64,000 bases of DNA from an uncultured Bacilli bacterium (GTDB lineage: Bacteria; Bacillota_I; Bacilli_A; ML615J-28; CAG-698). The notes below the pieces were generated by a model. It saw only the letters and a program-made list of their open reading frames with translations, had not been told where the DNA came from and made no database searches. The DNA is taken from the NCBI GenBank assembly GCA_947627195.1, contig CANQVC010000002.1:1-64000 (forward strand). Reading direction: 5' to 3'. Position numbers and translations under genes: made by a program. Every line of letters begins with the position of its first letter. Within the stretch, counting starts at the first letter, position 1. This document shows, piece by piece, positions 1 through 16,510 of this stretch.

Positions 1-77
1 GAGTTTGAAATTATCTCTTGGGTTAAGACCTGTCCCAATTCTTTCAATACATTCTCCTAACTTACGCTGTTCCCAAG
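1..77. repeat. 77-bp direct repeat, copy 1 (matches 3779-3855)
   Basis: Bases 1-77 match 3779-3855 without a mismatch; the match ends at the codon before the conserved Trp-Glu-Gln-Arg-Lys-Leu-Gly block. Both copies have the same orientation. The repeat is cut by the window edge, so its true length may be greater. Recombination between the copies would delete hsdR and part of hsdS, or replace sequence by gene conversion. Confidence 0.95.
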
Positions 78-99
78 AATATGTAAATTTATCATTATA
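1..99 (-). pseudogene. hsdS fragment (silent specificity cassette), cut by the window edge
   Basis: On the minus strand the frame opens after a TAA at 100-102 and encodes DKFTYS followed by WEQRKLGECIERIGTGLNP, running off the window. Bases 1-77 are identical to 3779-3855 inside the expressed hsdS, where the same residues begin the second target-recognition domain (Trp220 onward). Between the stop and the conserved WEQRKLG block there is no ATG, GTG or TTG start in frame and no ribosome binding site. This suggests a start-less specificity fragment lying just downstream of hsdR rather than an expressed gene. Such fragments are known donors in shuffling type I specificity loci; that role is inferred here because the rest of the fragment is outside the window. 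Confidence 0.75.
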
Positions 100-139
100 T
101 TACCAATTTTTTTATAAAAATATGACACTAACTAAATTT

Positions 140-3100
140 TTATATATCAAAACCATCATCTACTATAAATTTTCTTAAAATAGAATCTACTTTCATTGTT
201 ATAGAAAAATCATCGTAATTCATGTTATCTCTTTTTTCAAAATATTCTTTAGCAACACTCATATCAACATTTTTCATCAAATCATCAAATCGACAAAATT
301 CATTTATATTACTATCATTTAATCCAAGTTCCATAATCTTTCTAAGCATTGCTTCATTAACACCTATAGCTATCGCAAATTTATGGATTTGATCGTTTCT
401 TGCATTTATTTTATATTCATTTATATAATCAGTTAAACCTTTACTTGAATCAAATTCAATATTTCCAGATTCTAAATCGTGTAAAAATAGATTTGCAAAC
501 TTTTGATCTTCCTTACTTAACTTCGCAAATGTCCTTGATAATTCTTCCTTAGCCTCCGTTAAATCTTCACCATTTTTAAGCACTTTTAAGAATTTGGTAA
601 ATCTATTATTAATCCAATCATAGTCTATTTGTACACTAGACTCGGATAAGTAAGATTCAATATCGAATGGTGGGGAATCATATCCCTGAACTTCAATATG
701 AGGAACTTCTTTATAACGCATTAATAAAATGTTATATGTCTCTTTATCACATAAAGAAGTACATTCAACTGTTTCTCCATTTTCGTTTTCTAACAAATAT
801 CTTTGTTTATCCCATAAAAAGTCTTGGAGTAAAGCTGCTCGTAAATGCTTATTAAATGAATTGAATTCTGAAACAAATTCTGCAATTTCTTTCGTGTCTT
901 CTGGAAGTTTTTCAAAATTTTTTATTCCTGATGTTTCAAAAATATTTCTAATATTCTTAAAAATATTATTCATTTTCATTAAATTTTTATATAACTTATC
1001 AACAAAAATACCAAATGGTCTATTACCAGAATAAACATTGAATGCGTCATTAATGTTAACTTCCATAGTGTGTGGTTTTCGGTAATATTTAATAATACCA
1101 TATGGTTTATCTTCATCACATATTCTATTAGTTCTAGAAAATGATTGAATAATGTTTGGAGTCAGATCTATATCATAAAATTTATCTAAATATAAAGTGT
1201 TAACCCATTTAGAATCATAACCCGTAAGCATTTGGTCAACTACAATGACAATGTTTAATTGTTTTTCATTCTCAATTGATAAATATGGTTTTTTATGAGC
1301 TAATCTTCTCTGAACATCTATTTTAAAATTTTTATATGAACTTAAATCAAATGTAGTTTCATACATTTTGTTATAATCATTAATTATATCAACTGCAGCA
1401 TCTATTCTTTTAATTACATCATCATTATTATTATCATAACTTGTTTCAAAGATTGCAGTGACTTTTAATCCAAGTACATTATTTTTTAGTAAATTATAGT
1501 AATCAATTGCTTCTTTAATACTACTTGTTGCTAATATTGCATGATATTTTTTATTTATTGATAATATCATAAACCCATCTAATATATCTTTTATTACTGC
1601 ATTATGATGTTTAGGATTATCATATTGAGATTCTTTAACAAAGCCTTCAATTCCTTTAATAAATTCTCCATTTTTATCTACATAACTTTCCATTTTATAT
1701 TTAGATTTATTCATAAAATCTTCATATATTTTCTTTTTATTTGGATCTGCAAGTGCTTCATCTCTATCTTTTGCATTTGCTTGGTCTAATGCTACTGCTT
1801 CTCTTAAATCAGTATCCTTATATGTACACACTTTAATTTGATCAAAGCCTAAAACATTTCCATCTCTAATACCATCAGCAATAGAATATCTATGAAGTTC
1901 TTCACCAAAAACATCAGCTTGATTCAAGCCAATTTTTTTCTTTTCTTTTATTATTGGTGTACCTGTAAATCCAAAAAATATTGCTCTATTGAATGCTTTT
2001 TTAATACTAATAAGCATATCACCAAATGTAGATCTATGACATTCATCAATTATAAAAACAATTCTTTTTTTGTTAATTAGATTGATATCGTTTTTAAAAT
2101 TTGTATTATCTTGTGATAATAAAGACATTTTTTGAATTGAAGTGACAATCAATATATCTTGAAATGCATTACTTTTTAATTTACTAAGTAATACAATTGA
2201 ATCTTCAGTATCTTGAACTTCTGTATATTGATCAGCAAAAGCTCTATACTCATTGATACTTTGAACTCCAAGTTCGATTCTATCCACTAAAAAAATTACT
2301 TTATCAGCATCTTTACTTTCAGAAATCAAACATGCTGATTTAAAAGATGTCATCGTTTTTCCAGAACCTGTTGTATGCCAAATATATCCACCATAATTAT
2401 TCTTTTCTTCAAAATGTGTTTTACTAACCTTGTCAGCTATTTTATTTGCGGCATAGTATTGGTAACTTCTTAAAACTTTTAATTTTTCATCTCCATTATC
2501 AGCAACCATATAGAATCCAATCATTTGATGGGCAGTTGGAATATGTAATAAAGTTCTTGCAATTTCTCTATAATCATTAATTTCTTCATTATTAAAATCA
2601 GCCCAATGAAAGAAGAATTTTTCATTAAAGGCTGTATCACTTCCAGGATTAGCGAAATATTTTGTTTCCTCTGGCGTCATGGCAACAAATATTTGAATTA
2701 ATGAATATATGCCCGTAAATACTCCTTCATGCATATATTTTTTTATTTGATTAACTGCTTCTCTAATTCGTTCTCCTGTTTTTTTAAGTTCAATATGAAA
2801 TACGGGCATACCATTTATCAACAACATTATATCGCCACGTCTTGACGGATAAATTCCTTTAGCTTTAAATTGTGGTTGTTCTACTATTTGATATCTACTT
2901 TGACCAGCACAAATTTCTTGTCTATCGTATATTTTTAAAGATATTTCTTGACCAAAATGAATTAGGTCATTAGGATTATCTCTTTTTATTGAAACAAATT
3001 TGCCATTTATAAACTGGTTTCTCTTTATAGGAGTTTCTAATGAGCTTACTTTTTTTAAGATTTGTTTCATTTCACCATCTGTTAATGGTTGATTATTTAA

Positions 3101-3253
3101 TCTATCAATCTCTCTATTATTCTCAAAAAGTATATTAGCCCAATTATTTATAAGAACATCTTCAGTAGGAAATTTAATAACTTCTTTTTCCCATCCGTTA
3201 TTAATGAGTAATTCAACAAATGATTTTTCAAATAATAATTCATCATCAAACAC
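140..3253 (-). CDS. hsdR: Type I restriction enzyme, R (endonuclease/translocase) subunit
   Basis: Restriction subunit of a type I restriction-modification complex: ATP-driven DNA translocation followed by cleavage of DNA lacking the host methylation. The N-terminal nuclease domain shows Asp141 and Glu155-x-Lys157 (within HIELKKTG), the PD-(D/E)xK pattern. The SF2 motor follows, with Walker A TTGSGKT at about 295-300, the DEAD-like box DECH at 403-406 and FGFTGTP just after it. A helical C-terminal region completes the 1037 residues, a usual family length. The start is GTG at 3253, preceded by AAAAGGAG with about 9 nt spacing. It is the last gene of the operon, 15 nt after hsdS. It appears intact. 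Confidence 0.95.
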   Translation of the reverse strand: MFDDELLFEKSFVELLINNGWEKEVIKFPTEDVLINNWANILFENNREIDRLNNQPLTDGEMKQILKKVSSLETPIKRNQFINGKFVSIKRDNPNDLIHFGQEISLKIYDRQEICAGQSRYQIVEQPQFKAKGIYPSRRGDIMLLINGMPVFHIELKKTGERIREAVNQIKKYMHEGVFTGIYSLIQIFVAMTPEETKYFANPGSDTAFNEKFFFHWADFNNEEINDYREIARTLLHIPTAHQMIGFYMVADNGDEKLKVLRSYQYYAANKIADKVSKTHFEEKNNYGGYIWHTTGSGKTMTSFKSACLISESKDADKVIFLVDRIELGVQSINEYRAFADQYTEVQDTEDSIVLLSKLKSNAFQDILIVTSIQKMSLLSQDNTNFKNDINLINKKRIVFIIDECHRSTFGDMLISIKKAFNRAIFFGFTGTPIIKEKKKIGLNQADVFGEELHRYSIADGIRDGNVLGFDQIKVCTYKDTDLREAVALDQANAKDRDEALADPNKKKIYEDFMNKSKYKMESYVDKNGEFIKGIEGFVKESQYDNPKHHNAVIKDILDGFMILSINKKYHAILATSSIKEAIDYYNLLKNNVLGLKVTAIFETSYDNNNDDVIKRIDAAVDIINDYNKMYETTFDLSSYKNFKIDVQRRLAHKKPYLSIENEKQLNIVIVVDQMLTGYDSKWVNTLYLDKFYDIDLTPNIIQSFSRTNRICDEDKPYGIIKYYRKPHTMEVNINDAFNVYSGNRPFGIFVDKLYKNLMKMNNIFKNIRNIFETSGIKNFEKLPEDTKEIAEFVSEFNSFNKHLRAALLQDFLWDKQRYLLENENGETVECTSLCDKETYNILLMRYKEVPHIEVQGYDSPPFDIESYLSESSVQIDYDWINNRFTKFLKVLKNGEDLTEAKEELSRTFAKLSKEDQKFANLFLHDLESGNIEFDSSKGLTDYINEYKINARNDQIHKFAIAIGVNEAMLRKIMELGLNDSNINEFCRFDDLMKNVDMSVAKEYFEKRDNMNYDDFSITMKVDSILRKFIVDDGFDI

Positions 3254-3268
3254 GTCTAATTTCTCCTT

Positions 3269-4510
3269 TTAAACAAACATTTTATCAAGTAATGCCTTTT
3301 TTAGACTTTTTAATTTTTCATATTTACACTGATGAAGGGTGATAAGGTTGTCAAGAGCAGTAATAAAAACTCCTATTTTCCTTTGTTCTGTTTTACATGG
3401 AACAGGAATTATAGCTTTTTTAAGGTCCCCTATTTTTATACTTTTAAATGTACTTCCTGTAATATTCGATAAAATTTGCTTTAGGACTATATCACTATGT
3501 ATTGTTTGAAATAAATATTCAGGTTTTACAACTTTTTGGTTTGGTCGTAATGTAAAAACCGATTCATTTATATTCCAATTTTTGGGTTCCTTATCGAGCA
3601 AATAACAATCACCAACTCGTCCAATACTAGCAAACAAAATATCGTTTTTTTTAAGTTCACTTCTCTCTTGAATTTTCCGTAATGAGATGTCGTCTATTTT
3701 ATCACAGTTATCATCAAGATACAGCTTACCGTGCTCAAAATTCTTTATTGTAACATAATAATTAGAGCCACCATTGTTGAGTTTGAAATTATCTCTTGGG
3801 TTAAGACCTGTCCCAATTCTTTCAATACATTCTCCTAACTTACGCTGTTCCCAAGCTTCAACAAACCCTTTAAATCGAATTTTAGGAAGCTTTTTTCCAA
3901 TTGATGGAAACATTTTATCAAGCAATGCTTTTTTAATACTTTTTAACTTTTCATACTTACACTGATGAAGGGTGATAAGGTTATCAAGGGAATGAAATAG
4001 TTCTCCAATTTGCTTTTGCTCAGCGAGATTAGGCACCAAGGTTTTAAGCTCTGAAAATTCAGTGAGGTTTACGATTTGCATAGTTCCTGCTGCCGCTGAG
4101 TTTTTCATTTGAGTTGACCATAATGAACTCTCAGTCAGAAGAAAATAAGGATCGTATTTATTTTCATTTGGGGTCAGCCCGTTAATCTGTTGATTAAAAC
4201 TGCCCGTATTTCCAAGCAAAGTGTTCTTTCCAATACTTGCGATACAAGTTACAAGGATTGTATTTTTCGGAACAACACGTCCCACCTGTTGACCTAATCT
4301 GCTTAGCTTCCTTGCGCTATTAAATGTAATTGTTTCGCTAATATCTGTTGGAGTTACCCACACTATTCCATCATCAGAATAGTATTCGGGAACCGCTGTT
4401 GAAGGCGTGTTCCCAGTTGTAATTGTTCCGAGTTCCCCCAACTTACGCTGTTCCCATGTTTCTGTGAAGCCTTTAAACCTTATGGATGGCTTATGATTTT
4501 TCTTATTCAC
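3269..4510 (-). CDS. hsdS: Type I restriction-modification specificity subunit
   Basis: DNA-recognition subunit that directs HsdM and HsdR to a bipartite target. The 413 residues form two half-subunits: target-recognition domain 1 (about 15-160), central conserved helix (about 165-205), target-recognition domain 2 (about 215-370) and a distal conserved helix (375-413). Each half starts with RFKGF followed by WEQRKLGE and ends with a KALLDKMF-type helix, so the two halves share near-identical DNA blocks. The start is GTG at 4510, 2 nt after the hsdM stop, with GGTGGTG as the ribosome binding site. The start of TRD2 is exactly repeated at the left window edge, so the specificity of this gene may change by recombination. 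Confidence 0.93.
   Translation of the reverse strand: MNKKNHKPSIRFKGFTETWEQRKLGELGTITTGNTPSTAVPEYYSDDGIVWVTPTDISETITFNSARKLSRLGQQVGRVVPKNTILVTCIASIGKNTLLGNTGSFNQQINGLTPNENKYDPYFLLTESSLWSTQMKNSAAAGTMQIVNLTEFSELKTLVPNLAEQKQIGELFHSLDNLITLHQCKYEKLKSIKKALLDKMFPSIGKKLPKIRFKGFVEAWEQRKLGECIERIGTGLNPRDNFKLNNGGSNYYVTIKNFEHGKLYLDDNCDKIDDISLRKIQERSELKKNDILFASIGRVGDCYLLDKEPKNWNINESVFTLRPNQKVVKPEYLFQTIHSDIVLKQILSNITGSTFKSIKIGDLKKAIIPVPCKTEQRKIGVFITALDNLITLHQCKYEKLKSLKKALLDKMFV
3278..3355. repeat. hsdS internal direct repeat, distal copy (pairs with 3911-3988)
   Basis: A 78-bp block encodes the distal conserved helix of HsdS. It matches 3911-3988 (633 bp away) with 7 mismatches by my alignment. It is a natural consequence of the two-half HsdS architecture and also a possible site for domain exchange. 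Confidence 0.85.
3779..3855. repeat. 77-bp direct repeat, copy 2 (matches 1-77)
   Basis: Start of target-recognition domain 2 inside hsdS, identical to bases 1-77. Beyond 3855 the sequences diverge immediately (the linker encoded here is FVEA, against FTYS at the edge copy). The breakpoint therefore lies at the conserved WEQRKLG block. Confidence 0.95.
3911..3988. repeat. hsdS internal direct repeat, central copy (pairs with 3278-3355)
   Basis: This block encodes the central conserved helix (ALLDKMF region) of HsdS. It has the same orientation as 3278-3355 and about 91% identity by eye. Together with the WEQRKLG-encoding blocks near 3840 and 4442, it divides the gene into exchangeable cassettes. 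Confidence 0.85.
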
Positions 4511-4512
4511 AA

Positions 4513-7083
4513 TTATTCACCACCCAATAGTTTGATTAGTTCATGAAGACCTTTCATATCAAACTCATCACCAGTAAGTTCATCAATCATATTAATAATT
4601 TTATTAGAAACATCTTTTATGTCATTATCTAAATCATGCAATGTAACTTGATACTTTTGTTTTAATGATGAAATTTTTGATTTAAGTAACTTTTCTGGTT
4701 CATCAAGCAAAGACATAATTCCATCATAAATATTTCTATTCCATTTAATATCTAAAAGTTTTAGCGCCTCATCATTTGACATATTTTCAATAGTTTCTTT
4801 TGTAATAAAATGTAATGCAGAAATTTTTTCTTTAATTTCTTTATTAATCTTTTTTTCTTTTTCATTCAAGTTATTTGCTTGTATGCAAATATCTTCAATG
4901 CTTCCTTTTTCAATACTTTGATTTTTATTTTCTTGTACAATTTTTTTAACTTCTTTAAAATTAAATGAACTATTATCATCAGTTAATATAGTTTCTTTAT
5001 CATCTTCTGAAATATTATCTATAAGTTCTTCATATTCTGAAGTAATTAAAGATAAATTGGAATTTAAATTATTTATTTCATCAACATTTGATTTTAATAA
5101 TTCATTTTGTACTAACTCAAAAGGTAATATTAATCCTTCCCATCCATCTTGCTTTTCTTCTTCTCTTCCATCTTTTTTCTTAATAACCATATTAGGAATA
5201 ACCTTTGTCAATGATTCCATTCCATCAGTTTGTAAAACTTCTAAATCAATAGAAATTTTTTTATATTCATCAGAAAAAATTTGGAATGCTTGATATTTAT
5301 CTATTAATTCAATTTTACTAAAACGATTAAAAATTTCATTAGTGATTTCTTCTTCAGTGCTTGCAACATTCAAATTAAGTATTTCATTCGTTAAAGTTTT
5401 TGTAAGATAATCGCCAAAATTTCCAAATACATCCATATAGTTTTGTTTAAACTTCAATAGATCAATATTTTTAGAAAAAATTTCATTTAAATCTTGATCG
5501 GTTATATTTGAATAAGAATCATTTATTTTTGTAAATAATTGTTCTTTTAATGTTGGAAATAATGACCAGTAATCATGTAACTCTTCAATCTCATAATTAG
5601 GAATACCACCATTCATGATAGAATAAATATCATATGATTCGTATTCTTCACTTGAATCAACATATCGAGGAATATTTAAATTATAATCATTTTCTCTAAT
5701 TTCTTCTAAAGATACAACTTTCGCAAATTTTGGTATATCCATTCTTTGTTTATACGCATCAACTATTTTTCTTATATCTCTTGCACGTAATTTATTATTT
5801 TTACCTTCTTTAATAAAACCTTTTGATGCATCAATTATTAACACATTTGAATTTTTTCTTTTTTGGTGTAGAACCATGATGATTGTTGGAATACCTGTGC
5901 CAAAGAAAATATTTGCAGGTAATCCAATAATAGTATCAATATTATTATTTTCAATTAATTTTCTTCTAATATCTCCTTCAGTTCCACCTCTAAATAAAAC
6001 ACCATGAGGCAAAACAATTGTCATAATTCCACTTGGTTTCAAATGATACAAATCATGCAATAAAAAGGCATAATCTGCTTTTGATTTAGGCGCTAATCCA
6101 TAATTTTTATATCTTGGATCAGAATCCTTATCTGTTGGATTCCATTTTTGTGAATATGGTGGATTTGATACGACTGCATCAACATACATTGTAGAATTTG
6201 GATTTTGGTCATCAAGAGGCCAATCATCTTCTAATGTGTCAGCATTTCTAACTTTTATTTGATCTGCTGAAATACCACGCATTATTAAATTCATACGAGT
6301 AAGGTTATACGTTGGCTCTTTTAATTCTTGAGCAAAATATTTAATATTATTTTTATTTTTAATATGTTTTTGGACACTTTTTCCAATATTAATAAGTAAT
6401 GACCCAGATCCTGAAGTAGGATCATAAATTCTAATTTCATTGTCATTTCTTAAATGGTATGCAACTATTTCACTCATTAAAAGTGATACTTCATGAGGTG
6501 TATAAAATTCTCCAGCTTTTTTTCCAGCATTAGCAGCAAAATTAGAAATTAGATATTCATATATAAAGCCCAAAACATCATAATCAGATCGTCCATCCAT
6601 TGGAATATCTTTAATCAGAGAAATTAAACCTCTAATACTCTTAGTTTGTTCACCTGCATTAGATCCTAAGTTTGAGATCCCATTTTGCAAGGTTCTAAAA
6701 ATCCCACCATACACTTCTTGATATTTGTCTTTTTCACCTGTTGGTTCATAAATTAATCTAGTAAAAGCAGCTAAGGCTATGGAAACATTATCAACAGTAA
6801 AATCAGAACCCATCTTTAACCATGTTGAAAACAAATTTTCGTAGGCAATAAAATATCCTAATTTCCTTTGAACAAATGTTTTTATTTCGTTATTATCTTC
6901 ATTTACATTCTTTAATTGTTCATCTGGCATATGACTTTGGCGAAATAATTGTTCTTCTTTATCTGATAAAAATTTATAAAATATAAAACCTAAAATATAA
7001 TCTTTATATTCATTAGCTTCAATTTTAGATCTCATCTCATTTGCTGCTTTCCATATTCTTGCAGCTAATTGCTGTTTGTTCAT
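4513..7083 (-). CDS. hsdM: Type I restriction-modification methyltransferase subunit, C-terminally extended
   Basis: Adenine-N6 methyltransferase subunit of the type I complex. The N-terminal helical domain (about 1-150) is followed by the catalytic domain with the S-adenosylmethionine motif DPTSGSGS at 221-228 and the catalytic motif NPPY at 307-310. Usual HsdM proteins are around 500-530 residues; this one has 856. The extra 340 or so residues are highly charged and predicted helical, with Glu/Lys/Asn-rich coiled-coil-like stretches, and contain no motif I recognise. The start ATG at 7083 is preceded by a GGGTGG-like site, and a good promoter lies at 7153-7181. It is the first gene of hsdM-hsdS-hsdR. 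Confidence 0.94.
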   Translation of the reverse strand: MNKQQLAARIWKAANEMRSKIEANEYKDYILGFIFYKFLSDKEEQLFRQSHMPDEQLKNVNEDNNEIKTFVQRKLGYFIAYENLFSTWLKMGSDFTVDNVSIALAAFTRLIYEPTGEKDKYQEVYGGIFRTLQNGISNLGSNAGEQTKSIRGLISLIKDIPMDGRSDYDVLGFIYEYLISNFAANAGKKAGEFYTPHEVSLLMSEIVAYHLRNDNEIRIYDPTSGSGSLLINIGKSVQKHIKNKNNIKYFAQELKEPTYNLTRMNLIMRGISADQIKVRNADTLEDDWPLDDQNPNSTMYVDAVVSNPPYSQKWNPTDKDSDPRYKNYGLAPKSKADYAFLLHDLYHLKPSGIMTIVLPHGVLFRGGTEGDIRRKLIENNNIDTIIGLPANIFFGTGIPTIIMVLHQKRKNSNVLIIDASKGFIKEGKNNKLRARDIRKIVDAYKQRMDIPKFAKVVSLEEIRENDYNLNIPRYVDSSEEYESYDIYSIMNGGIPNYEIEELHDYWSLFPTLKEQLFTKINDSYSNITDQDLNEIFSKNIDLLKFKQNYMDVFGNFGDYLTKTLTNEILNLNVASTEEEITNEIFNRFSKIELIDKYQAFQIFSDEYKKISIDLEVLQTDGMESLTKVIPNMVIKKKDGREEEKQDGWEGLILPFELVQNELLKSNVDEINNLNSNLSLITSEYEELIDNISEDDKETILTDDNSSFNFKEVKKIVQENKNQSIEKGSIEDICIQANNLNEKEKKINKEIKEKISALHFITKETIENMSNDEALKLLDIKWNRNIYDGIMSLLDEPEKLLKSKISSLKQKYQVTLHDLDNDIKDVSNKIINMIDELTGDEFDMKGLHELIKLLGGE

Positions 7084-7482: not shown

Positions 7483-8688
7483 TTAAAAATCATTACCTAA
7501 TAAAAAATCAATTAAATTTAAATGAATAATACCATCACGTGATAAATCTACTTTATCAAGGGAAATTATATATTTAGGATTATCATCTTCTATAGAATTA
7601 AATGCTTTAAATTCTCTTTCAATGGTATTATCATTACCTAACATTTCATATGTAACTTGAATATATTTAATATTATTATCTTTTTTCGCAATGAAATCTA
7701 CTTCACCATTTTTAGTTTTACCAATATATACTTCATAATTTCTAATTATCAATTCATTATAAACAATATTTTCTAATACAACATAATTTTTAAATTCAGG
7801 GTTATTATTTTTTATTTTCGCAATCCCTAAATCAGTTGCATAAAACTTATTTAATGTTTTTAATACACTTTTACCAGCAATATCATATCGATATACTTTC
7901 TTTATTATTAATGCTTTACATAAAGCATTAATATAATTATAAAGTGTTTCGTTAGATATTTTTTTATTTATATTATTTAAATATTTTATAACATTATCAA
8001 AAGAGAATTCACGTCCAGCAGTTTCTATTAGATATTGTAAAATCATATCAAATAGAAATGTATCTTTTAAATTTAATCTTTTTACGACATCTCTTAAAAT
8101 AATTGAATCATATACACTATGTAAATAATTTTTAATATCAATTTCATTAGTAAATTCACATCTATTAGGAAGTCCACCCCATTTAGCATAATCCCAAAAT
8201 GTATTTAAATCATTTCCATCTTTATTTGTTAATAAAACATATTCTTTATAAGATAAAGGATAAATGTTAAATAAAACATATCTACCAGATAATACAGATG
8301 ATAATTCATCAGATAACATTTTACTATTAGATCCTGTTAAAAAGATACTAATATTTTTAATTTGGGCACGTAATGAATTTACAACTTTTTCAAACTCATT
8401 GACATTTTGAACTTCATCTAAAAATAAATAATACATTTTATTATCTTTAATTTTATCTTTGATATAATTATTTAACTTTTTATAATCTAATAATTCCTCA
8501 AATTCAATAAATTCAAAATTAATAAATATTATGTGTTCTTCATCAATATTACATTTATCTTTTAATTCATCTATAATTTGATTTAAAATAACTGATTTTC
8601 CACATCTTCTTATACCAACTAATATTTTAATTAAATCTGAATTATAAAATCCTCTTATTTTTGATAAATAATTTTCTCTTAATAACAT
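7483..8688 (-). CDS. AAA ATPase with DUF4143 C-terminal domain
   Basis: A single-gene unit of a widespread but poorly understood family of ATP-binding proteins (AAA_14 plus DUF4143). The N-terminal ATPase has Walker A GIRRCGKS at 25-32 and Walker B with FLDEVQN around Asp91-Glu92. A winged-helix-like middle follows, and the C-terminal part carries GEVDFIAKK and YIQVTYE, resembling the PD-(D/E)xK-type fold seen in this family, although the terminal EVK is replaced by QVT. The length of 401 residues is typical. The start ATG at 8688 follows AGAGGT. It has its own promoter (8709-8737) and terminator (7304-7372). The physiological role is unknown; a link to the neighbouring restriction locus is only positional. 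Confidence 0.82.
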   Translation of the reverse strand: MLLRENYLSKIRGFYNSDLIKILVGIRRCGKSVILNQIIDELKDKCNIDEEHIIFINFEFIEFEELLDYKKLNNYIKDKIKDNKMYYLFLDEVQNVNEFEKVVNSLRAQIKNISIFLTGSNSKMLSDELSSVLSGRYVLFNIYPLSYKEYVLLTNKDGNDLNTFWDYAKWGGLPNRCEFTNEIDIKNYLHSVYDSIILRDVVKRLNLKDTFLFDMILQYLIETAGREFSFDNVIKYLNNINKKISNETLYNYINALCKALIIKKVYRYDIAGKSVLKTLNKFYATDLGIAKIKNNNPEFKNYVVLENIVYNELIIRNYEVYIGKTKNGEVDFIAKKDNNIKYIQVTYEMLGNDNTIEREFKAFNSIEDDNPKYIISLDKVDLSRDGIIHLNLIDFLLGNDF

Positions 8689-8837: not shown

Positions 8838-10178
8838 TTATAAAAACATTGTCATATAAATTGGTATATAGATTAATTCACCATCTTTTCTTAAATCTTT
8901 TGTATACACCAAATATCTTTGCCCTGTTTTATCTGAAAATTTATTAACGAATGCATCAATAGATTTATGAGTTTTATATCCTGATGATTTAACCTCAATA
9001 GGCGAAATCTTATTTCTTTTCGCAATCAAAAAATCAATTTCATAGTTATGACTTGAATTTTCTTTAGGAAATGTGTAGTAAAACAATTTATTTCCTGTTG
9101 CATGTAGCATTTGGGCAACTATATTTTCATACAAATATCCTAAATCAGTATCAAGTTTGTCACTTAAAAGTTTCTCATAAATAACATTTTCAGTGAAATC
9201 TTTATCCATAAATGCAAGTGTAGTAAACAAGCCAGTATCACCAAGAAACATTTTATATCTAGCAATGTCTTCATGTAATGACATACCTACACTCGGATCA
9301 TTTGCATGATATGCAACATTAACAGTCAAAGAATCTTTCATATCTGCAACAATTCCAAGTATACGGTCATGTTTTTCATTTGCAATGACACTTGACACTT
9401 GATATCTTGATGCATTTTTTGCAAGTTCAGATGGAATAGCCGAAAACATTAATGATGCTCTTCCAGTAGAATCAATTTTTCTAAAATCATCTTGATAAAG
9501 TTCTAAAATAGAGCGTTTTACCTGATCTACTTTACTGAAATTGTTTGTATCAAGATATTCATTCACAGCTTGAGGCATTCCACCAACCAACATATACAAT
9601 CTAAAATCACGCATCATTCTTCGATTGACGTCATCACCTAAAGATTTTTTATTTTCAAAAGCAAATCTCAACATCTGTATTGTTGCTTTATCCTTAAGTG
9701 CCCAACGGAACTCTTCATAATCCATAGGAACCATTTCAATTCTTGTTTCTTCACTTGGAATAACAATATTTTCAACATTCTTTTTTATTGATAATAATGA
9801 TCCTGTTTCAATATAATCATATCTTCCATCTTTAACTAAATGTTTAATTGCTTGTCTAGCAAAAGGTTCTCTTTGAACTTCATCAAATATAATAACTGAT
9901 TTCCTATTTTCTAAATTTACGTGATAAATTAATTGAAGACGCAAAAACAAATAATTCAAATCAGACAAATCTTTAAATAAATTATGAACTTCTTTAGGAG
10001 CAATAGAAAAATCAATAAGAATATAACTAGAATACTCTTTTTTAGCAAACTCTTCAACAATTGTAGACTTGCCAACACGTCTTGCGCCTTTTATCAAAAG
10101 AGCAGTTTTACCATTAGAATCTCTTTTCCAATCCAACATTTTTTGATAAATTTTACGCTCAAAAATTCTTTCGGTCAT
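8838..10178 (-). CDS. AAA ATPase with DUF4143 C-terminal domain (second, divergent copy)
   Basis: The same broad family as the preceding downstream gene but with a clearly different sequence. Walker A is GARRVGKS near residue 31 and Walker B is IIFDEVQRE. The C-terminal domain has YEIDFLIAK followed by SPIEVKSS, a well-formed (E)ID...EVK signature of a PD-(D/E)xK-like fold. It is 446 residues long. The start ATG at 10178 has a strong AGGAGG site. A strong promoter at 10204-10232 overlaps one of two direct repeats. No function can be assigned beyond ATP binding and a possible nuclease-like or DNA-binding C-terminus. The two copies are probably paralogues acquired or retained independently, since each has its own promoter. 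Confidence 0.83.
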   Translation of the reverse strand: MTERIFERKIYQKMLDWKRDSNGKTALLIKGARRVGKSTIVEEFAKKEYSSYILIDFSIAPKEVHNLFKDLSDLNYLFLRLQLIYHVNLENRKSVIIFDEVQREPFARQAIKHLVKDGRYDYIETGSLLSIKKNVENIVIPSEETRIEMVPMDYEEFRWALKDKATIQMLRFAFENKKSLGDDVNRRMMRDFRLYMLVGGMPQAVNEYLDTNNFSKVDQVKRSILELYQDDFRKIDSTGRASLMFSAIPSELAKNASRYQVSSVIANEKHDRILGIVADMKDSLTVNVAYHANDPSVGMSLHEDIARYKMFLGDTGLFTTLAFMDKDFTENVIYEKLLSDKLDTDLGYLYENIVAQMLHATGNKLFYYTFPKENSSHNYEIDFLIAKRNKISPIEVKSSGYKTHKSIDAFVNKFSDKTGQRYLVYTKDLRKDGELIYIPIYMTMFL

Positions 10179-13591: not shown

Positions 13592-14486
13592 TTCTAAGCC
13601 TCTTTATTATCGATGTGGCTGCTATTGTTGCATCACCTACTGCTGTCGTAATTTGTCTGACATCCTTGGAAATTACGTCTCCTGCTGCATAAAGTCCATC
13701 TACCTTAGAGTTACCCTCTTTATCCACAATAATGAATCCTGATTGATTTATGAGGCTTAAATTGGCAAGAAAATTTGTATTTGGCTCAAATCCTATACAT
13801 TCAAACAATCCATCTACATTAAGTGTTCTTCCACTCTTTAATACTAATTGTTCTAAATGATCTTTACCATTCATGCCAACAATTTCTTCATTAAAACATA
13901 TCTCTGTTTTTTTTAGAACTTTATTAAGACTCATAAATTTATTTACAAGAAATTCATCACACCTAAAACTATCTCGACGATGAATTAAATATATTTTATT
14001 AACAATTCTTGATAAATAAATACATGTTTCTAATGCCGACATTCCGCCACCAACAACAGCAACATCTTTACCTTTATATAATGTTCCATCACAAGTAGCA
14101 CACCAAGATATGCCTTTATTTAGGTATTTTTGTTCATCTTTGATGCCTAATATTTTATGATGCATTCCTGAACAAACTAAAACTGTTTGAGCTTCTACTT
14201 CTTCATCTTTACAGATGACTGTGAAATGATCATCTTTTTTTATATCAATTACTTCTGAAGAAATAAAGTGCGGACTATAATTTTCAAGCTGTTGAGACAT
14301 TGTGTATGCAATAGATGCTCCATCAGTAGGTAAAATGCCTGGATAATTAGCAATCATTGGAGAATTAATAATTTGCCCACCAACACAGTTTTTTTCAATA
14401 ATGGCAACTTTAAAATAATTTCGCCTTAAATATATCGCAGCAGTAACACCTGCTGGTCCTGCACCTATAATAGCACAATCAAACAT
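13578..14486 (-). CDS. trxB: Thioredoxin reductase-type FAD/NAD(P) oxidoreductase
   Basis: Cytosolic flavoenzyme that passes electrons from NADPH to thioredoxin. The FAD-binding motif GAGPAG is at 8-13, the redox-active pair CATC is at Cys129-Cys132, and the NADPH-binding motif GGGMSA is at 146-151 with HRRDSFR shortly after. The C-terminal GLYAAGDV closes the FAD site. It has 302 residues, typical of low-molecular-weight thioredoxin reductase. It sits in the conserved hprK-trxB-whiA context, 16 nt after hprK and overlapping whiA. All catalytic residues are present. Confidence 0.93.
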   Translation of the reverse strand: MFDCAIIGAGPAGVTAAIYLRRNYFKVAIIEKNCVGGQIINSPMIANYPGILPTDGASIAYTMSQQLENYSPHFISSEVIDIKKDDHFTVICKDEEVEAQTVLVCSGMHHKILGIKDEQKYLNKGISWCATCDGTLYKGKDVAVVGGGMSALETCIYLSRIVNKIYLIHRRDSFRCDEFLVNKFMSLNKVLKKTEICFNEEIVGMNGKDHLEQLVLKSGRTLNVDGLFECIGFEPNTNFLANLSLINQSGFIIVDKEGNSKVDGLYAAGDVISKDVRQITTAVGDATIAATSIIKRLRNVVF

Positions 14487-14502
14487 ATTAATAATCCTTT
14501 CT

Positions 14503-15444
14503 TTATGATTCTTTTTTATTATTACGAACGATATTATTTAATTTATTCACAAATTCTAATGAAGCATTTCTGCCAAAACTTTTCAAACGCCAATTCATTG
14601 CTGCAACTTCAATTAATGTTGCTAAGTTTCTTCCTGGTTGAACATGAATTGTTACTTTAGGAATTTTAACATCAAAATATGTATCCATTTCTTGTTCTAA
14701 TCCTAAACGGTCTAATGTAACATGTTCATCCCATTTAACTAAATCAACAATCAACATAACTCTTTTTTTATTGCGAAAAGCTTTAACACCAAATAAATCA
14801 ACGACATCAACTATACCAAGTCCTCTAATTTCCATTAGTTTTTCCGTTAATTTAGGAGATGATGCTATTACTTCAAATTCATCTTTACGAACTAAATCAA
14901 CTAAATCATCAGATACCAACGCATGACCTCTTTTTAATAATTCTAAAGCTGTTTCACTTTTACCAACAAAACTCTTTCCTCTTAATAAAACACCTACACC
15001 ATTAATATCTAACATAACACCATGAACAGATTTCTTTTCCGCAAGTTCTTCACTTAAATAACTACTTAAAGTAGTAATAAAAGCTGTTGTTCTTTGTTTT
15101 GATTTTAGAATAGGGATTTTATATTCTTCAGATGCTTGAATGAATTGGGGTGGTACTTCTTCTACATGAATGGTAAAGATGAAAACAGGAGGATTATAAG
15201 AAAATAATTTTCTTGCTCTTTCTAATCTTTCATCTTCTTTTAACATATAAAACAAATTAACTTCTTTAGTACCTAATACTTGAATTCTATCATCTTCATA
15301 AAATTCAAAATAATTAGAATATATTTCTACACCTGGTTGAGAAACTACTGTCCTAGTTATTTCTCTATTTAAATATTCTTTTCCTGATATGACATCTAAA
15401 TGTAATTCATTTACACATCTTTCTACTGTTACTTTTTCAACCAT
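14503..15444 (-). CDS. hprK: HPr kinase/phosphorylase
   Basis: Bifunctional enzyme that phosphorylates and dephosphorylates HPr at its regulatory serine, controlling carbon catabolite repression and PTS uptake. The C-terminal catalytic domain has His141 (VHGVMLDINGVGVLL), P-loop GKSFVGKS at 156-163, the Asp pair 179-180 and the HPrK signature MEIRGLGIVDV. The P-loop has Phe where many homologues have Gly, but the GxxxxGKS pattern is intact. 313 residues is the usual length. It overlaps the preceding membrane protein gene by 16 nt, so the two are translationally coupled. Confidence 0.95.
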   Translation of the reverse strand: MVEKVTVERCVNELHLDVISGKEYLNREITRTVVSQPGVEIYSNYFEFYEDDRIQVLGTKEVNLFYMLKEDERLERARKLFSYNPPVFIFTIHVEEVPPQFIQASEEYKIPILKSKQRTTAFITTLSSYLSEELAEKKSVHGVMLDINGVGVLLRGKSFVGKSETALELLKRGHALVSDDLVDLVRKDEFEVIASSPKLTEKLMEIRGLGIVDVVDLFGVKAFRNKKRVMLIVDLVKWDEHVTLDRLGLEQEMDTYFDVKIPKVTIHVQPGRNLATLIEVAAMNWRLKSFGRNASLEFVNKLNNIVRNNKKES

Positions 15445-16010
15445 TTTTTTCCTCCCATTTTATGACGATATTGAATAGTTAATATAAAATGTCTAATAAT
15501 TTGGCGAATAATTATTGTAAATACTAAAGCAATGATAAACAATGGAACAGAACGAATAGTAATAAAAATAGGAAAAATCGTTGAAATAATCATTGCTACT
15601 AATGATGGTAGCAGTGTAATAAGTCCATATGTTTTGATAATTAATTTAGGGAAAGCAATTAAAATTATCATTTGTAAGATAATTTCTATTCCACTAAAAT
15701 ATAAAGAGAAAAACAATAATTTAAAAACATTACTCCAATCAGCTATCGAAAATATACCATTAATACCAATAATTATAAAAACATTTAATAAAAGAATAAT
15801 TAAAGCTTCTTTCCAATAACTTAAAGAATTAGGTCTAGGTGTCCTTATTTTCACAATCTTAGCTTCTTGAGTGCCAATATTTTCTTCTAACATTTTTAAT
15901 AATTTATCAATTTCTTCTTCTTGTTTTTGTTCTAATTGTTCTTCTTGTTGTTTTTTTAATTCTTTTTTAGATTGCTTTTTTTGTTTTTTTTCTTCTTTAT
16001 TTTCTCCCAT
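15429..16010 (-). CDS. Membrane protein of unknown function upstream of hprK
   Basis: I do not recognise the family. The N-terminal 50 residues are extremely rich in Lys, Glu and Gln (a charged helix, probably cytoplasmic). They are followed by four hydrophobic segments between about residues 68 and 185 and a basic C-terminal tail. I chose the ATG at 16010 because it has a GGGAG site at good spacing; a start six codons upstream (16028) has none. The gene overlaps both neighbours (VanZ-like upstream, hprK downstream), so it is co-translated with them. In many Firmicutes lgt follows hprK; no lgt is seen here and this protein does not show Lgt motifs. Confidence 0.6.
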   Translation of the reverse strand: MGENKEEKKQKKQSKKELKKQQEEQLEQKQEEEIDKLLKMLEENIGTQEAKIVKIRTPRPNSLSYWKEALIILLLNVFIIIGINGIFSIADWSNVFKLLFFSLYFSGIEIILQMIILIAFPKLIIKTYGLITLLPSLVAMIISTIFPIFITIRSVPLFIIALVFTIIIRQIIRHFILTIQYRHKMGGKKWLKK

Positions 16011-16510
16011 ATTTTTACTCCCATCCATCCTATATATAATCCTATATGATTTAAAACTATATCAACAATATCGAATAATCCGCGACTTGTTATATATTGC
16101 ATTAATTCTAAAAATATAATTATTATTGTACCATATGATATTTTATCTTTTAAAAAATATCCCATTGGTATAAATAACAAAATATTTCCATAAACATTTA
16201 ACATAATTATTTTATTTTTGTGAATATATTTAAGCCAATTTGGTAAATAAAAGTTAAAATTAATTCCACTTTTACTAATTCTTGAAAATAATAAAATAAT
16301 TAACCAACCTAAATATATTATAAATAAATATTTATGTTTTTTAAGATATATTATTATTCCTAATAAAAAATACATTAATATTAATAAATAATATGTACAA
16401 TTTAAAAATACATTTAATTGAATAATAAGTTCGTAAAAAAGCAAACAATATAAAATACCAACTATTATATACAAAACGATGTAAAACAAATTAATCTTTC
16501 GTTCTTTCAT
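15956..16510 (-). CDS. VanZ-like membrane protein
   Basis: The 184-residue protein has five or six membrane segments. The C-terminal half has the VanZ-family pattern NVYGNILLFIPMGYFL, then FLELMQY and FDIVDIVLNHIG. VanZ itself affects teicoplanin resistance, but most family members are of unknown role in the cell envelope. It is the first gene of the unit leading to whiA. No ribosome binding site is visible before the ATG at 16510; a TATAAT lies only 8 nt upstream of the ATG, so the message may be leaderless or the true promoter lies further upstream. Confidence 0.75.
   Translation of the reverse strand: MKERKINLFYIVLYIIVGILYCLLFYELIIQLNVFLNCTYYLLILMYFLLGIIIYLKKHKYLFIIYLGWLIILLFSRISKSGINFNFYLPNWLKYIHKNKIIMLNVYGNILLFIPMGYFLKDKISYGTIIIIFLELMQYITSRGLFDIVDIVLNHIGLYIGWMGVKIWEKIKKKKNKKSNLKKN

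Follow-up and report, generated by a model that had tools for sequence, protein, structure and literature searches.

Recombinase-driven variation of the specificity gene hsdS is well known in type I R-M systems, as are the direct-repeat tvr arrangement and the tandem 5'-truncated hsdS genes of Mycoplasma faucium. The SpnIV tvr locus of Streptococcus pneumoniae contains two direct repeats that share a core of approximately 11 bp; a tyrosine recombinase encoded by the locus moves TRD units, and circular intermediates have been detected (PMC6265443). There, hsdM and hsdR are separated by the recombinase gene and a Phd-Doc-like toxin-antitoxin pair, which have units to either side (PMC6265443), and the N- and C-terminal units carry different repeats. 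For M. faucium, the part of the source considered here reports 5'-truncated, start-less hsdS fragments in tandem and in the same orientation, with 28-bp direct repeats, directly after a full hsdS, and this part describes no recombinase partner (PMC11062135). The SpnIII and cod systems with PsrA have a locus-encoded tyrosine recombinase and short sites inside hsdS, and they rely on inverted repeats and an additional, oppositely oriented hsdS (PMC4948785, PMC7096588; REBASE survey PMC7394358). Since the REBASE survey searched for inverted repeats only, arrays in direct orientation would escape it (PMC7394358). In H. pylori, TRDs also move between positions within HsdS; the portion of that work considered here is an evolutionary comparison between strains and mentions no dedicated recombinase or silent array (PMC3077401).

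Here we describe a type I locus of an uncultured Bacilli bacterium. The window analysed is a stretch of 64,000 nt that begins at one physical end of contig C2 (89,662 bp). Our data suggest that this type I R-M locus is likely phase-variable, with site-specific recombination shuttling TRD cassettes between hsdS and a silent array. As analysed here, the locus resembles SpnIV tvr in logic and differs from it in layout. Both are type I R-M loci with a tyrosine recombinase that moves TRD units (movement being proposed for the present locus), and both have two types of direct repeat with a common core (CAG-YGT-AAG here), a likeness drawn from the published description and not from the MPR/TER sequences. 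In contrast to tvr, the array and recombinase gene lie downstream of hsdR, hsdM-hsdS-hsdR are contiguous, an inverted copy of one site lies past the recombinase gene, and all units share the same two sites, A and B. The start-less fragments follow hsdR and not hsdS, unlike those of M. faucium. Of the features of SpnIII and cod, neither inverted repeats nor an opposite-strand second hsdS were found in the assembled part of this locus, save for the one inverted B site.

The type I operon and a start-less cassette at the contig end

Profile matches indicate that the window contains a complete and contiguous hsdM-hsdS-hsdR operon on the minus strand. It comprises hsdM (4513..7083, a methyltransferase of 856 aa, above the cut-off of TIGR00497), hsdS (3269..4510, the expressed specificity subunit of 413 aa with a GTG start and two TRDs, matched by PF01420 in two stretches), and hsdR (140..3253, the type I restriction subunit of 1037 aa, above the cut-off of TIGR00348). 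Beyond hsdR, a non-coding junction (78..139, minus strand) with an in-frame stop and without a start codon leads to the 5' part of a silent TRD cassette (1..77, minus strand), which is cut by the contig end.

A preliminary description of this DNA reported that bases 1-77 are identical to bases 3779-3855 within hsdS and that the edge copy follows a stop codon without a start, and we confirmed both observations. The match is exact and in direct orientation, and the sequences diverge from base 78 on. Read on the minus strand, the edge copy is TAA-YNDKFTYS-WEQRKLGECIERIGTGLNPRDNFKL, with no ATG, GTG or TTG between the stop and WEQRKLG. These are the only two copies genome-wide, and the next-best genome matches to the stretch are just 24-33 nt long, which excludes ordinary homology of WEQRKLG blocks as the source; to judge from the sequence, the match is far above chance. 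The identity had been described as bounded at the codon before WEQRKLG. This holds, with the additions that the boundary lies at site A (see below), where base 77/78 coincides with the first base of the CTTGGGAACAGCGTAAG block, and that the identity begins inside the codon preceding W, GCT and TCT having CT in common.

While the 77-nt identity is real, we rejected 77 nt as a biological repeat length. The assembly consists of 78 contigs, and most contig ends were compared for end overlaps. Of the 48 contig ends that match another place, approximately 30 do so over exactly 77 nt, and the overlap of most others is 69-76 nt, so that 77 nt is the k-mer of the assembler. It follows that the edge identity runs on leftward past the contig end and extends over at least 77 nt. 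Only the right boundary of the edge repeat (base 77/78, at site A) is biological.

Short sites bound every TRD unit

We found that every TRD unit opens at site A (TTGGGAACAGCGTAAG), which encodes WEQRK, and closes at site B (CTTATCACCCTTCATCAG), which encodes LITLHQ. On the minus strand, the TRD1 unit (3962..4458) runs from A1 (4442..4456) to B1 (3960..3979), the TRD2 unit (3329..3855) runs from A2 (3839..3855) to B2 (3327..3346, CTTATCACCCTTCATCAGTG), and A3 (59..77, CTTGGGAACAGCGTAAGTT) opens the silent cassette. The three A sites match the A motif exactly, and B1 and B2 match the B motif. Between TRD1 and TRD2 lies a central spacer (3856..3961, minus strand) that sets a B-to-A spacing of 108 nt. 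The 5' 77 nt of the TRD2 unit are those duplicated at 1-77, while the 3' 77 nt of the TRD1 unit (3959-4035) are duplicated at the end of another contig, C41. Sites A and B have the core CAG-YGT-AAG in common in the same reading frame, and the copies in operon and array (A1, A2, A3, B1, B2 and B3) are all in direct orientation.

Both sites are confined to this system within the 1.84-Mb genome. Site A has three exact copies, all at this locus, plus one unrelated match with two mismatches on contig C14; site B has three exact copies and one copy with one mismatch, all in the locus or flanking the recombinase gene on C41. Reversed control patterns of A and B gave 0 matches genome-wide. The codons used at A and B are scarce in the same operon, where CAG makes up 6% of Gln codons, CGT 9% of Arg, AAG 14% of Lys, ATC 6% of Ile and ACC 4% of Thr. 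At operon codon frequencies, the chance per site is approximately 1/1,400 for the A string and approximately 1/280,000 for the B string, values that are illustrative since the copies share ancestry. Because rare codons are used at both sites, the DNA sequence itself appears to be constrained there.

A literature text search with the sequences of A and B found no paper. Strings similar to A and B are present in an hsdS of the Lactococcus lactis plasmid pAH1-8 (L215), with a short gene annotated as a site-specific integrase nearby. Given these strings, the spread of A and B may exceed that of the recombinase described here.

Contig C41 carries a recombinase gene and an hsdS fragment

The right end of contig C41 (17,889 bp) carries 77 nt identical to window positions 3959-4035, the 3' end of TRD1. 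By our own reading, this hsdS 3' fragment ends on the minus strand as PNLAEQKQIGELFHSLDNLITLHQC-EQILGRNMKK-stop, and it overlaps the start of a gene for a 307-aa tyrosine recombinase (C41 16860-17783). The recombinase is matched by PF00589 and PF13102 and contains the motifs TGMR, HGLRH and GHAS...Y; it is intact, with its catalytic motifs. Its gene is bounded by B sites, of which B4, on the far side, is inverted. The recombinase gene has an ATPase gene as its neighbour, and no toxin-antitoxin pair was found next to it.

Each of five family relatives (G006, G022, G026, G018 and G011) has, on a single contig, the ABC-transporter (pot) permease gene of C41 and the WhiA gene of C2 in the same order and orientation, at a distance of approximately 5-16 kb. 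This conserved synteny and the shared 77-mer place C41 to the left of C2, and the type I locus here sits between the pot permease and WhiA. Further hsdS fragments and a tyrosine recombinase had been predicted to the left of the window, and C41, placed by synteny, supplies both. As far as the assembly can be followed, the left flank contains this recombinase gene and hsdS fragment and not an independent complete hsdS lacking a recombinase.

It had also been argued that copies in direct orientation bar a simple inversion, which is true between the two copies of the edge repeat and does not extend to the flank, where an inverted B site lies beyond the recombinase gene. This B site would fit a classic inverting hsdS system of the SpnIII/cod type with its inverted partner in the unassembled gap, as would the fact that members of the recombinase family flank hsdS pairs in inverted arrangement on an IMG/VR contig (L183), in Listeria innocua (L210) and in Enterococcus raffinosus (L213), lying between the two partners in Listeria and Enterococcus. 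Yet no further hsdS fragment was found on C41 beyond the recombinase gene, all hsdS units detected at the locus have a single orientation, and no inverted repeat joins hsdS to the flank, so we consider an inverting system quite improbable here.

The gap between C41 and C2 must begin as TRD2 and end as TRD1. We infer that its simplest content is approximately two tandem start-less cassettes, or approximately 1 kb, with a linker of approximately 39 nt; these would be missing because contigs under approximately 2.5 kb are absent from the assembly (the smallest is 2,502 bp). A single chimeric silent TRD, with the start of TRD2 and the end of TRD1, was judged unlikely, TRD1 and TRD2 having no nucleotide homology for an internal crossover. 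The two contig ends could also be a population artefact, with a single silent slot in reality and the start of C2 and the end of C41 derived from cells with different TRDs in that slot. Contig ends at shared k-mers do arise at branch points, and a single silent cassette is the layout of two related loci, L158 and L154. However, from the behaviour of de Bruijn assemblers, a mixed slot should end contigs inside the shared A or B and not 77 nt into one TRD, which leaves this explanation unlikely; even if true, it would directly show that the population shuffles its TRDs.

Both expressed TRDs are thus represented in the silent part, each by an identical duplicate of at least 77 nt at an assembled contig end, which points to recent exchange or copying. 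The earlier proposal that TRD2 is exchanged with a donor beyond the left edge is supported by these data and has to be amended, in that the silent part represents TRD1 as well. The edge fragment could instead be a static relic, now functionless, of an old hsdS duplication, as its lack of a start codon and its position outside the coding frame of the operon would allow. Such a remnant is hard to reconcile with 100% identity over at least 77 nt to each expressed TRD, when TRD units within the loci of relatives are at most approximately 78% identical, one recent duplicate excepted. Exact site boundaries, an intact adjacent recombinase with catalytic motifs and a start-less layout that is shared by distant genera also speak against a remnant, and we regard it as very unlikely.

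Other genes around the locus and elsewhere in the genome were noted. ATPases of one general kind flank the type I locus, at 7483-8688 and 8838-10178 of the window and at 15553-16749 of C41; the two window ATPases match the PADLOC candidate family PDC-S01, while the likeness of the C41 ATPase to them was judged by sequence reading alone. By eye, the ORF list of C41 shows a row of caspase-like, TIR-like, DUF262/HNH-like and adenine-methylase-like genes (2550-6206), which may form an additional defence cluster on this contig. Contig C8 of the same genome (5250-14042) carries another type I locus, unrelated to the first and inverting in layout, in the order hsdR, hsdM, hsdS (527 aa), an opposite-strand half hsdS, a gene for a 267-aa tyrosine recombinase, a half hsdS and an inverted full hsdS, with inverted repeats of 320 nt (90%), 90 nt (98%) and 19 nt (100%).

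Direct arrays and the recombinase in other genomes

Within a sample of 296 genomes of the class, orthologues of the recombinase with 58-90% identity are present in 16 other genomes, and most of them adjoin type I hsd genes. All-direct arrays of start-less A-TRD-B units were found at L155 (two units, between hsdS and hsdR), L156 (three), L165 (two) and L158, where a single start-less cassette directly follows hsdR as in the window. Silent tandem units are 39-41 nt apart (five cases), and in all expressed hsdS genes that were compared the distance between the TRDs is exactly 108 nt. Inverted units accompany the same recombinase family at L135, L183, L210 and L213, so the family is not specific to direct arrays. 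A search of viral contigs with the recombinase returned mostly integrases without A/B sites, with sites present only at L183 and L184; the only matches to HsdR in a search of genome contigs were two distant loci of spirochaetes, and the one same-genus genome searched gave no hsdS match.

In two other species, the first base of a site is where contigs break off, A in L154 and B in L157, as would follow if the same TRD or tail stood in several contexts. These breaks bear on the possibility that homologous recombination of the RecA type, or gene conversion, from silent copies is the sole route of TRD exchange, the recombinase doing no more than invert its own gene between the two inverted B sites. 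Identical silent copies of at least 77 nt of both expressed TRDs are what copying leaves, and a 515-bp unit is duplicated at 100% in L167. Furthermore, inverted B sites flank the recombinase gene, whose orientation relative to the hsd genes differs among loci (same strand in L154 and L155, opposite in L158). However, breakpoints fall at the edges of A or B in three organisms, and the small size of the sites (15-20 bp) and the constraint on their codons are what site-specific recombination would lead one to expect; TvrR uses comparable short direct repeats (PMC6265443). We therefore hold exchange by RecA-type processes alone to be possible though doubtful, and favour site-specific recombination of TRD cassettes at A and B.

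Several related loci have features of their own. In L167, a single-contig genome in which TGA encodes Trp, the two 100% identical copies of the 515-bp TRD unit (14382-14896 and 15728-16242) are in opposite orientation, and the copy adjacent to hsdM has an early stop after site B, which gives a half-length HsdS frame. L162, also from a genome with TGA as Trp, has an hsdS region (4288-6038) with three in-phase TRD units and 108-nt spacers. The presence of such TGA-as-Trp relatives in its class suggests that the window genome belongs to Bacilli in the GTDB sense. Annotated hsdS genes of Mycoplasmopsis cynos (L209, 6667-9924) contain four consecutive same-strand B-like sites, the last of which enters an integrase gene, possibly another direct array of this kind. 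Members of the same recombinase family adjoin genes for GbpC/Spa surface proteins in Ligilactobacillus salivarius (L214) and occur at a locus without hsd genes in Mesomycoplasma hyorhinis (L216), which suggests that the family is used at other variable loci.

Proposed mechanism and implications

We infer that the recombinase acts on sites A and B and that the specificity of HsdS switches as a result. Each TRD, active or silent, would be a unit bounded by A and B, with the recombinase recombining at both. Because the sites of operon and array are all direct, movement would take place by excision and re-integration or by copying. Recombination between direct sites would excise circles, and on re-integration at another copy of the site the start linked to hsdM, or the central spacer, would be followed by a different TRD, a mechanism that has been demonstrated for SpnIV tvr (PMC6265443); alternatively, TRD units would be copied from the array into the expression slots. 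A circle excised between A2 and A3 would include hsdR, an awkward outcome and a weakness of a strict tvr model, and simple cut-and-paste accounts less well than copying for the identical copies in the silent array. The inverted B4 would permit inversion of the recombinase gene, which fits the different orientation of this gene between species, and, given this site, inversion may form part of the cycle.

We tentatively suggest that the locus is an integron-like cassette array, with start-less tandem TRD units and 39-41-nt linkers, loadable into either HsdS slot, and with the recombinase gene between inverted site copies; such arrays might form a widespread direct class that surveys of inverted repeats have missed. 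New here are an array positioned after hsdR, A/B boundaries that are uniform among all units, the constant linker lengths and the base-exact site edges, as is the wide recombinase-linked spread of direct arrays, which are invisible to a survey of inverted repeats only (PMC7394358). The direct cassette class gives a simple signature that can be sought in any genome, namely A, B, the 39-nt linker and start-less units, and the complete or near-complete relatives G108, G066 and G197 could serve for tests of the mechanism. Our data suggest that this bacterium can probably swap the DNA sequence recognised by its enzyme by means of spare cassettes and a recombinase. Type I systems that rewrite their specificity alter phage defence and genome-wide methylation within one clone.
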